64,000 bases of DNA from Tubulanus polymorphus (taxonomy: Eukaryota; Nemertea; Palaeonemertea; Tubulaniformes; Tubulanidae). Below the pieces are notes generated by a model. It ran no database searches and was not told the DNA's origin. It was given only the letters and a program-made list of their open reading frames with translations. The first letter of the stretch is position 1. Each line of letters starts with the position of its first letter. Of the stretch, positions 362-41,099 are shown piece by piece. The stretch lies in the NCBI RefSeq assembly GCF_964204645.1, contig NC_134028.1, positions 22,232,153 through 22,296,152 on the forward strand, given 5' to 3'. A program made the position numbers and the translations under genes.

Positions 362-411
362 CATCTAGCTGAGCAGCGACAATCTGAAACCGACATCAAC
401 GAATGCATAAG
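362..411 (+). CDS. ZNG1: ZNG1 exon (first visible)
   Basis: The acceptor is a T-rich tract ending in TTTTGCAG at 361 and the donor is GTTTGA at 412. The exon encodes HLAEQRQSETDINECI plus two bases of an Arg codon. This matches the human segment HLKEEKPDGLVNEAARQ, which lies just before the G4 motif exon. It starts in phase 0 and ends in phase 2. It is only 50 bp, so it is supported mainly by the frame-perfect join to the next exon. Confidence 0.85.
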
Positions 412-3400
412 GTTTGACAATTTTCTCTAGGCACATTTCATACTTATATTACGCATCATAATTTGCATTGATTATGAAAAGAATATGATATTTCACCGGT
501 CTCCGCCCGTCAATTGTTGGTTCACATGTTTATGTGAATCCTGGTGGTAGTTTCTTATGTGGCCTGAAAAAACTCTCAAACGAATTTTCTCTGGTCGCAT
601 TTCATATGTAATTAGCATCAAATCGAAAAAAGAAAATGTTTCACTGGTCTCTTTGTTAATGTTAGGGGCTTGATTTTCTCCCCTCAAGAAAACTGTCAAA
701 CCTGCTCATAATACCGCGGTGCTCGATGGGTTAAGGGGAAAACAAAGATCAGAAACTGCTGATGATAATGGTCGACTTGATCGAAGAAGAATTGATAAAT
801 TCAACATTTTGCGATCAATTTCAGACAGATTTCGTTGGCGGATGTATTGATATTGAACAAAATCGATCTAGTCAGTGATGAGGAACTCTTAAAACTACAA
901 TCGGAAATCAGGTGAGGAGATTCGCATCAGCGCTCACTAAAGAATCACTCTAAATCTATTGAATTCTAGATTCTCAATTTGTGTGATTATTTCGTATCAT
1001 CGATTAGTAGAAATCAAATTTTTTGTTTGTTTTCATGAATTACGTATCATCTAAAGTATATTCTAACTTTAATTTCAGGGCGATAAACAGTTTTGCAAAA
1101 CTGATCAAGACTGAAAGATCAAGGTATACAGTAGACCCCGATTAATCGGGATCAATCTAGATATTATTTACGGTCTCTACCAAAGACATATTTGAAAATT
1201 ATTGTAATTAATTTAAAAAAAAAATGTTTTTATTTCTCGTCAGGGTCGACTTGTCAACAGTTCTCGATTTGGAAGCTTATACAGGAGGCGAAACCAGGTA
1301 AAAACCCATTGAGCTGTTTAGAGAGTCCTTCCGTGGCATTGATTTCGAGCCCGATTGTATCACCCAGATTTAGTATACGGTTCTAGATGGTTTCGCCCTC
1401 TGGTCACTTTGTTTTACGTATTGACTTGGGCGCCGTCTGCTGGAAATTGAAAAGAAAAAAAAATTTTCTTGTAGCTTTGTCCATTGCAAAAAATATATTT
1501 CTCATACTTCAATTATTAAAGCGATTCAGCTTCAGTCGAATTGGGACTGCACTTATCAGAAGTCGTGGTCATTGATCATCCTTTAAGGAAAATTTGCATT
1601 AAAGTATGAAAGTAACAACCTGGATCGCACATGACCCTTGAACCTCTCACAAGTTCTTGCCTTCAAATCACACATTTTAAATCTTCTTTTCTAGCATCGA
1701 AAGAGCGAAAACAATCCAACAAAAAGCAAATAGCGATGAAACATCTCATATCGACAAGGTTAGTATATACAGTAGACTGTGCACTTGCCTCGAATCTTCA
1801 GTAGACTCCGCACTTGCTTAAAATCTACACTAGACTCCACACTTGCCTCAAATCTACAGTAGACTGTGCACTTGCCTCAAATATACAGAAGACTGTGCAC
1901 TTGCCTCGAATCTACTGTAGACTCCACACTTGCTTCAAATCTACAGTAAAACTGTGCACTTGCCTCAAATCACCAGTAGACTGTGCACTTGCCTCGAATC
2001 TTCAGTTGGCTCCGCAGTTGCCTCGAATCTACATAGACTGTGCCCTTGCCTCGAATCTACAGTAGACTCCACACTTGCCTCAAATCTACAGTAAAACTGT
2101 GCACTTGCCTCGAATCATCAGTAGACTGTGCACTTGCCTCGAATCTTCAGTTGGCTCCGCACTTGCCTCAAATCTACAGTAGATTCCGCACTTGCCTCGA
2201 ATCTCGGGGGACTGATCAATACTCTCAGAGGTACATGAATTCTGGGGTAGTTGGAGCAGGTGTTGTTATCGCGATGAATTGGGAGTAAGATGATCAGAAA
2301 TCAATTGACAGGCGGACACGTGATAATCCCCGGGAGTCGACTGCGGTGTAAACACAGTCTACTGCATTTTTATCGACAGAAAAAACCTACCCCAGTCGCC
2401 AAAGTGTCTCACAAACGCTAAATAGCAGTACGATTACTGATTTAATGAATGCATGTTTAACATTGTTGACACTTCTCTCATAAAGTGACTTACTGAAAAT
2501 TATTGTTCTATGAACTCATTTTAAACTAACAAAATATTTCGAATGAAATTATGACACTCCGCCATACGATGTACATGTACAGTATTCGGGATAGCACAAC
2601 GTGTTCTGCACTATTCGTCAAAATGCGATCGAAAGTTTTTTCTAAAAAAATGTTTTTCTTCATCTATTATTCTAATGCTATAGGCTTACAAAAAATATAA
2701 GAACACGATCGATCTTTCATCTTCTTGGCGAAAAATGTATCAAGCATATTTATCGTGATCAATAGAAACTTGCCACATACAGTAGTAGTAAATATCTTCA
2801 AATGAAATTTAATTTCTTTGAAAAAAAGGAATTTTTCTCTTTTTATTGCAATATTTTTGATTCAACTTTTTTCCCCAGGACGTAAAGTGCAACATCGATC
2901 CAAAATTTTTTGTGGTATGTTTTTGTCGTTGAACAAATCGTATTAAGTACATTTTTTTGTGTCATTTTACCTGTCGAAAATATTCCTGGTAAACAAGTAT
3001 AACGAGATAGGTGGGGGCCAATCACATTTAGCTGCTCATTCACTGCCTGTATATGCACACACCTTACAAGTAGGTATATATCTAGAGTAAAACAGGCCTC
3101 GACGTCTCTTTCTCTTTGAATGCGCGCAAATCGCATTAAAAATCACAGGACGAAATGAGCAGCTGAATTCGTTGTTCTTTTCGGTAATTCACGAACAATG
3201 GACAATTGAATGTCGAAAACGTCGAAAAGAGCATCGTAAAAATGGTTCGGGTGGGATGGGTTTAGAGAGCGGCTCAACTTTTTATCGTTTCGAGTATCGC
3301 GCCCGTTTGGATGAAGCGTCCGTGTTTAGGTTAGAGAACTCTCTCGAACGCACTTCGTTCGGTTAAAGTGGCCGCCGGCTGCTGCGGACTTTTCAAATGT

Positions 3401-39448: not shown

Positions 39449-39677
39449 ACTCGAAGTGGGTGGCCACTAAAAACATAGGTTCCATTGGTTTTAGATCATA
39501 TCTATACAGACTACTTGCTGACGATACATCACGATTAGATCTCAACCACGACACCTCTGAATAAGTGATATCGCCGCACTGTGTCTCGGAGCTTGCTGCT
39601 GCTGGTGGTGCTTCTGCTGCGTGAGTTCGTGGTAAGAAGTTTATTCTCTTTACGGATTGAAGTCAGGAAGAATCCGA

Positions 39678-41099
39678 ATGCAAAGTATGCGTTTTGACGG
39701 TAACATTGCGGCCGGTGGCGTCAATCCGGCGACAGTCGCCGAACATTTTCAATACCTGGCTCATCAGCAACATCGTCGGGCCATGATGACCGCTTCGCCG
39801 GAGGTATTTTCGGGTCAGGTGAATAGTTCGATAAACGCGGGTTCGCCCGTGGACCGGGCTGGCGACGGTCCGATCGCTCAGTTACATCCGGCGCATCAAC
39901 GGCCTAGATCTATCGTCGCATCGGCGCCCGGTGAACGGATTATAAACAAGCAAGAAGAACAGCCGGAAAATCATCACCAAGAAATGACGACCGAATCGAT
40001 GCACGATTCGAACGAAGAAGACGACGATTTGGACGTTTGCGGACACGTTGAAGACGACTGCTCGGGCGACGGCGTAAACAATAACAATAAATTCTCGGAC
40101 GCTGAAAGCGATAGCGAAGTTATAAAAGCGGATAACAATAATTCGACGGACATTACCGTCGACGAGGAGGAGGACAACGAAAGCGGTAGCGAGTCGTCGG
40201 GTGGTTCGGCGAGTAAGAAACCGGGTAAAAACCACGTCGTCAAACCGCCTTATTCCTATATAGCTCTAATAACAATGTCGATTCTACAATCGCCGCAGAA
40301 AAGACTGACGCTCAGCGGTATTTGTGAATTCATAATGAACAGATTTCCGTATTACCGAGAAAAATTTCCCGCTTGGCAAAATAGCATTCGTCATAATCTA
40401 TCGTTGAACGACTGTTTCGTGAAGATTCCCCGCGAGCCCGGCAACCCGGGTAAAGGCAATTACTGGACTCTCGATCCGAACAGCGAGGATATGTTCGACA
40501 ACGGTAGTTTTCTACGTCGGCGAAAACGTTTCAAACGCCCGACGGAAAATTACCACCATCCGAATTCGTTTCTGCCCGAGCCGTACGGGCATCCGGGGTT
40601 CCTGCACCACCCGACGCTACCCTACCCGTACATGGCGCCGCTGCCGTCACCGATGCATCTACTACAGCCTCCGACGACGGCTCCTGATCTCAGTCGAGTG
40701 ACTCTAACCCCGTTGAGTTTCGGGGGTCTGAGCGGCGCGTCGTCGGCCGCCGCCGCCGCAGCCTCCAATAATTCCCCGGGTGGAGGTGGTGTCAACAGCG
40801 AGGCGCCTAACACGACTACATCGAGGGGCAGTGTCGGGTTTACTATCGACTCAATTATAGGTAAAACTAGTGATACGAAAACTGTCGGACATTCTCGGCC
40901 GCCGATGGCGATGGGTATGACGATTCCGACGTCGTTAGCGGCGCAAATACCGCCGTCGTTGCGGCCCTATTTGGACTTCGCCAGGCCGTCGATGGCCAGC
41001 GCATTTACGTCGCCGTTGCCGATGGCTTTATCGGCGATAGACCTGGAAAAATATCGACAATACGTACAATCGTGCGGACTGGCTTCGTGGCCGAGATAA
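39678..41099 (+). CDS. FoxD: FoxD forkhead transcription factor, single exon
   Basis: An uninterrupted frame of 473 codons. I start at ATG 39678; the open frame extends 14 codons further upstream to an in-frame TAA at 39633, with no earlier ATG. ATG 39687 has the better Kozak context (A at -3) and may be the true start. The product has an acidic Asp/Glu/Ser-rich region (about residues 105-170). The forkhead domain (about 189-286) opens [14 protein letters not shown] and includes [15 protein letters not shown], wing sequence [10 protein letters not shown] and basic RRRKRFKR. Next come Pro/His-rich and Ala-rich stretches. An eh1-type Groucho/TLE motif FTIDSIIG (388-395) and PSLRPYLDF follow. 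The forkhead sequence and C-terminal eh1 place it in FoxD, nuclear DNA-binding factors usually acting as repressors in neural crest/neural, mesodermal and endomesodermal patterning. FoxD genes are typically intronless, as here. It lies downstream of ZNG1 in the same orientation. Confidence 0.95.

Follow-up and report, generated by a model that had tools for sequence, protein, structure and literature searches.

The window analysed here, a 64,000-nucleotide stretch of contig C4 (C4:22232153-22296152), carries the C-terminal half of a gene for ZNG1 (CBWD), a COG0523-type GTPase whose family is known to deliver zinc, and, downstream of it in the same orientation, an intronless gene for FoxD, a developmental forkhead regulator. 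The order ZNG1 then FoxD on one strand, with one locus for each gene, is confirmed in the 267.8 Mb of genome searched (77 contigs). We propose that the two genes may be an ancient microsyntenic pair, present in the bilaterian ancestor and retained in vertebrates as CBWD-FOXD4. Putative enhancers of FoxD would be housed partly in the large introns at the 3' end of ZNG1 and partly in the gene-poor sequence past FoxD; a breakpoint between the genes would then separate FoxD from some of its control elements, and the genes would thus be kept together. Taken as a whole, an ancestral pair held by such a regulatory interlock is the explanation that we consider probable. The bilaterian ancestry of the pair is very likely, judging from papers on the human locus and from presumed mammalian maps; the regulatory interlock, which places enhancers in the ZNG1 introns by reasoning, stands somewhere between evenly balanced and slightly favoured.

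An earlier note on this DNA had identified the first gene as ZNG1, with an exon start at 362 and the stop codon ending at 37230; the identification is right, and splice sites, frame and domain matches bear out both positions. Within the window, eight ZNG1 exons on the plus strand (362-37230) encode the C-terminal half of the GTPase, with AG/GT at all internal borders and a continuous frame. A CBWD probe matches six of the eight exons, those starting at 825, 1079, 1244, 13163, 31312 and 37172, which were placed by this match, splice sites and frame. Exon 7 was placed by the start given in the earlier note, AG/GT borders and frame, and the short exon 11 by phase, splice sites and the probe-derived ending [HN][LIV][DN]; the latter is the least certain exon, with a possible alternative start at 1704. 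The coding exons are as follows.

-4569 to -140, before the window, plus strand: ZNG1 coding exons 1-6
362..411, plus strand: ZNG1 exon 7
825..911, plus strand: ZNG1 exon 8
1079..1123, plus strand: ZNG1 exon 9
1244..1297, plus strand: ZNG1 exon 10
1695..1758, plus strand: ZNG1 exon 11, short
13163..13297, plus strand: ZNG1 exon 12
31312..31438, plus strand: ZNG1 exon 13
37172..37230, plus strand: ZNG1 exon 14 with the stop codon

The complete gene, modelled from the window together with flanking genome sequence, has 14 coding exons at C4:22227583-22269382 and 390 codons including the stop; its start ATG, at window position -4569, was placed by open reading frame (ORF). In Pfam, the 206-residue piece encoded in the window is recognised as CobW_C (1e-17) preceded by the end of cobW (5e-6), and the full-length model gives 1.9e-52 for cobW and 3.9e-17 for CobW_C. 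The nearest solved structure is E. coli YjiA (9.2e-39), and a human CBWD sequence aligns to residues 48-381. The model carries GYLGAGKTT and NGCLCC, which we take to be the Walker A motif and the CxCC metal motif, and a scan of the window for these two motifs found neither because their exons lie upstream of it. With the frame intact across 14 exons, a fragment or pseudogene of ZNG1 is rejected. Searching the genome with the ZNG1 protein gave 12 matches at E up to 1, all 12 inside C4:22227583-22269379; being a comparison of a model with its own DNA, this shows copy number and not exon correctness. A CobW_C profile search of the whole genome gave no match; the division of the domain among several exons is the probable reason. 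The modelled N-terminus, DEDEQIPDLILVND, resembles the METAP1-binding motif without its Cys, in a first exon that was placed by ORF only and for which an alternative is possible. At this N-terminus (window -4569 to -4395, C4:22227583-22227757), IPDLILV stands at the position of CPELVPM, which we take to be the METAP1-binding motif of vertebrate ZNG1.

The second gene begins 2.4 kb past the ZNG1 stop on the same strand and has no intron, as the earlier note had described. The features of the intergenic stretch and of FoxD are as follows.

37231..39677, no strand: ZNG1-FoxD intergenic stretch, the ZNG1 stop and the FoxD ATG being 2,447 bp apart
39678..41099, plus strand: FoxD, intronless ORF of 473 aa, from the first in-frame ATG at 39678 to the stop ending at 41099
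40242..40496, plus strand: FoxD forkhead domain, domain match 8.6e-38
40839..40859, plus strand: FTIDSII, an Eh-1-like (Groucho-binding) motif of FoxD, read in translation

An in-frame stop at 39633 precedes the FoxD ATG. Between the genes, AATAAA occurs downstream of the ZNG1 stop at 37251, 37255 and 37292, TATAAA occurs at 39442, and the gap contains none of the repeats dispersed in the local 184-kb region. The best match of FoxD in the PDB is Genesis, with 93 of 97 residues identical in a second alignment, and FoxC2, FoxA and others score lower; we take Genesis to be a FoxD3. By eye, an acid-rich stretch lies N-terminal to the forkhead. This stretch and FTIDSII agree with the FoxD protein description in the cited passage of PMC3627651, according to which Eh-1 is present in all FoxD members.

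A forkhead scan of the genome scored 32 matches. The 20 loci fetched cover 24 of the 31 matches other than FoxD, and these were compared with the FoxD domain; the seven left out of the comparison have scores of 27-51 bits, where FoxD itself reaches 133. The nearest forkhead among those compared is 71% identical and FoxC-like, and the remainder are lower, with class names assigned by eye and no tree built. No second FoxD-type forkhead was found among the 24 compared, the remaining seven being the low-scoring ones, and a lineage-specific FoxD duplicate, which the earlier note had named as a finding that would count against the ancestral pair, is therefore rejected. A pattern search for FoxD relatives in viral and genome contig collections yielded 1 and 19 pattern matches, of which none was confirmed.

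For the vertebrate side, we presume that in human each FOXD gene of this kind follows its CBWD gene in the same orientation, 2-3 kb past the 3' end, and that Cbwd1 and Foxd4 adjoin on mouse chromosome 19. If these maps are correct, the pair is older than the primate duplications. A literature search for the mouse Cbwd1-Foxd4 pair listed no paper on it by title. The adjacency of CBWD1 with FOXD4 and of CBWD2 with FOXD4L1, as claimed in the earlier note, is upheld by published passages as far as co-location goes, and its strand and spacing are presumed. Copy-number intervals given in a passage of PMC3990535 include FOXD4 with CBWD1 in 9p24.3 and FOXD4L1 with CBWD2 in 2q14.1. Passages in other papers describe a 271-kb terminal duplication that includes FOXD4 and CBWD1 (PMC8104183), name both FOXD4L1 and CBWD2 as genes in the region of the chromosome 2 fusion (PMC10496407), and report the same topologically associating domains for CBWD1, FOXD4, DOCK8, KANK1 and DMRT3 (PMC5709845). 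From the presumed human and mouse maps, we infer that FOXD4 is the vertebrate FoxD at the ancestral address.

The age of a pair common to mammals and this genome depends on the host, and the Hox genes were used for its placement. A homeobox scan found ten same-strand Hox genes within about 320 kb (C6:5318228-5634747), in the order Post2, two of Lox2/Lox4 type, Antp, Lox5, Scr, Dfd, Hox3, pb and lab, with classes assigned from homeodomains and tails by signature residues and not by a tree. The Lox5, Lox2/Lox4 and Post2 types are presumably lophotrochozoan marks. The host thus looks like a lophotrochozoan, and a pair that such an animal has in common with mammals would go back to the last ancestor of protostomes and deuterostomes. 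By eye, there is no Post1-type gene among the ten.

The argument for a regulatory interlock is based on the shape of the locus. Thirteen introns interrupt the ZNG1 coding sequence, and the three largest are the last three, nearest FoxD.

1759..13162, plus strand: ZNG1 intron 11, 11,404 bp
13298..31311, plus strand: ZNG1 intron 12, 18,014 bp, contains repeats
31439..37171, plus strand: ZNG1 intron 13, 5,733 bp
41100..64000, and on to about 84.1 kb, no strand: stretch 3' of FoxD without a recognised protein gene in codon-usage ORF scans

Introns 11-13 account for 35,151 of the 40,630 bp of intron, and introns 1-10 measure 120-1151 bp each and sum to 5,479 bp. Under random order, the three largest would fall last in 1 of 286 cases, a figure judged after the fact. 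As a yardstick, the gaps in five forkhead and three DOCK genes are 314, 353, 370, 457, 626, 949, 1681 and 3395 bp; these are gaps between consecutive profile pieces in a small, hand-made set, in which a gap may span more than one intron, and three sets with overlapping profile ranges were dropped (C1:1.78 Mb, C3:23.88 Mb and C3:26.67 Mb). On the other side of FoxD, no protein gene was recognised from 41.1 to 84.1 kb by a coarse codon-usage ORF scan, with low-complexity ORFs set aside and no family search made. The first gene-like ORF, an ankyrin-repeat ORF on the other strand, lies at 84.1 kb. FoxD thus has 35 kb of ZNG1 intron on one side and, on the other, about 43 kb in which no protein gene was recognised, and 2.4 kb separate the two genes. 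This shape is consistent with a target gene beside a bystander, and shape is not proof.

The codon-usage scan has a limited reach, as it would miss genes with small exons and the true ZNG1 exons barely attain its listing threshold. In ZNG1 introns 11-13, it found no long ORFs except those of low complexity. Short intronic ORFs at 32978-33124, 17841-17942 and 6789-6917 (minus strand) score 12.6, 11.7 and 10.7, and the true ZNG1 exons 13 and 12 score 11.1 and 10.5. Because the intronic scores match those of true exons, small exons of nested genes are possible. The Rfam scan of the window gave one tRNA only. This tRNA gene (54922-55037, minus strand, 116 bp, 48.1 bits), which could hold an intron, stands alone 3' of FoxD. 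Both strands of a (TGCTGC)-type array at 58721-58991 read as long ORFs of low complexity.

A different origin for the long introns would be repeat growth, in which case the pair would be old and the intron pattern incidental to FoxD regulation; we consider this unlikely, though not negligible. In its favour, a genome search with intron 12 found two dispersed repeat families, which together occupy about 1 kb of its 18 kb, among the 39 of 6,441 first-look candidates that were scored, and tandem arrays occur in introns 11 and 12. Against it, repeats dispersed in the local 184 kb are sparser in introns 11-13 (7-11%) than in the 5' part of ZNG1 (15%) or in the 5' flank (27-34%); in the sequence after FoxD they reach 15%. 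The contrast is tempered by the 3' flank, which has only 7%, and it is weak with respect to the 5' flank because duplicated ankyrin genes sit there. The repeats themselves are of several kinds. At 13437-13808 in intron 12 there is an element of about 365 bp, dispersed in many copies at 81-84%, and at 16366-16969 one of about 600 bp. Eight copies of the latter on C10 share 95-97% identity with it, and several of them follow one another at intervals of about 10 kb, a pattern like that of a long tandem array. A 29-bp minisatellite of 15 copies (1768-2204) begins 10 bp past the splice donor of ZNG1 exon 11.

A second alternative accepts the ancestral pair and holds that it was kept passively, since breaks between genes as close as 2.4 kb are rare; its probability is slightly lower again than that of repeat growth. 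The spacing is indeed short, and the enhancers in ZNG1 are putative only. Bearing on it is the wider neighbourhood, which in human includes DOCK8, KANK1 and DMRT genes near FOXD4-CBWD1, according to passages in PMC8606205 and PMC5709845. Here, genome profile searches placed none of the five DM-domain matches on C4 (all are on C1, C2 and C12) and none of the eight DOCK-C2 matches (all are on C2, C3 and C9). A wider block in common with human 9p24 is therefore rejected, and as far as DOCK and DMRT genes were tested, it seems that the pair has been kept rather than a block. The absence of both families from C4 points to ample rearrangement and so argues against passive retention, yet a gap of 2.4 kb is a small target.

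The weakest alternative, that ZNG1 and FoxD became adjacent separately here and in vertebrates, draws on the fact that a single invertebrate genome is compared with a human side taken from papers and presumed maps, and it is very improbable given the single locus for each gene, the agreement of order and strand with those human maps, and the small expected chance. For a named single gene to be the immediate same-strand downstream neighbour, this chance is about 1 in 40-50 thousand, by arithmetic on an assumed 20-25 thousand genes and for a pair noticed after the fact.

Several points weigh against an ancestral pair held by a regulatory interlock. The invertebrate side is one genome, which leaves room for chance or convergence. 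According to a passage of PMC7859237, Fox genes of S. mediterranea have retained no described microsynteny, in an assembly that its authors call incomplete. In chimpanzee and bonobo, according to a passage of PMC12926204, a chr2a inversion truncated CBWD2, and FOXD4L1 near a chr2b breakpoint is intact; that passage does not state that one CBWD2-FOXD4L1 pair was split. The truncation of CBWD2 means that a young copy of the unit can be damaged and the animals bear it. The scan behind the gene desert is coarse, and several intronic ORFs equal true ZNG1 exons in score. Long introns can grow passively, and the true repeat share of intron 12 may be much larger than the part detected.

The interlocked ancestral pair can be extended further, and we offer the extension tentatively. 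Introns 11-13 may have been home to FoxD enhancers since the bilaterian ancestor, for more than half a billion years; primates would then have copied an ancient unit whole, and FOXD4 would have kept its address, with FOXD1, FOXD2 and FOXD3 having left ZNG1. If the pair is ancestral, it would supply a fixed orthology anchor for FOXD4, a gene multiplied in primates, and the last ZNG1 introns would be the place to seek FoxD enhancers in any animal. If the proposal is true, copy-number work on human 9p24 could treat breaks in CBWD1 as possible regulatory lesions of FOXD4.

Around the pair, the coding neighbours recognised are an ankyrin-SOCS (ASB-like) ORF before ZNG1, on the opposite strand, and, past FoxD, ORFs of ankyrin and MFS type. 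No other forkhead match lies near FoxD; on C4, more than 3 Mb separate it from the closest ones, which are FoxK- and FoxJ1-like by eye. A FoxE neighbour of FoxD is thus rejected. Elsewhere in the genome, three FoxG-like genes (class by eye) within 45 kb at C1:2.29-2.34 Mb form a local expansion. On C3, FoxC-like and FoxF-like genes lie 23 kb apart at 5.84 and 5.87 Mb, and a FoxL1-like gene lies at 11.89 Mb, all classed by eye; with the FoxL1-like gene 6 Mb off, the set is a partly dispersed FoxC-F-L1 cluster.

With regard to novelty, a literature search for a ZNG1/CBWD-FoxD pair in an invertebrate gave no account among the matches listed, and one for CBWD with amphioxus gave no match. The main texts of PMC1634998 and PMC7535936 do not mention FoxD or CBWD. 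Irimia et al. 2012 found microsynteny retained for some Fox genes, as stated in a passage of PMC7859237, and the ZNG1-FoxD pair may already stand on their list.

Among known systems, the closest are the human pairs CBWD1(ZNG1A)-FOXD4 at 9p24.3 and CBWD2-FOXD4L1 at 2q14.1, where published passages likewise bring a CBWD and a FOXD4-type gene together; their order, strand and spacing of 2-3 kb are presumably as here. They differ in that the primate CBWD-FOXD4 unit was multiplied in segmental duplications, whereas the ZNG1-FoxD pair here is single, and in that the human pair lies near DOCK8, KANK1 and DMRT genes, whereas DOCK and DMRT genes have no match on C4 here. The FOXD3 genomic regulatory block is similar in combining a developmental target, an unrelated neighbour with large introns and gene-poor surroundings, and a passage of PMC2745767 describes vertebrate FOXD3 within such a block. 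In that system the neighbour gene is a different one, and the class is defined by conserved noncoding elements, whereas the likeness here consists of intron skew and a coarsely defined desert alone. The FoxD-FoxE cluster proposed for stem bilaterians, as given in a passage of PMC4077281, also represents an ancient FoxD linkage, although here no forkhead match adjoins FoxD. Finally, the ancestral metazoan microsyntenic pairs of Irimia et al. 2012 likewise join a developmental regulator to an unrelated gene. Ancient microsyntenic linkage is thus a known kind of arrangement, of which the lophotrochozoan ZNG1-FoxD pair is at most a new example.

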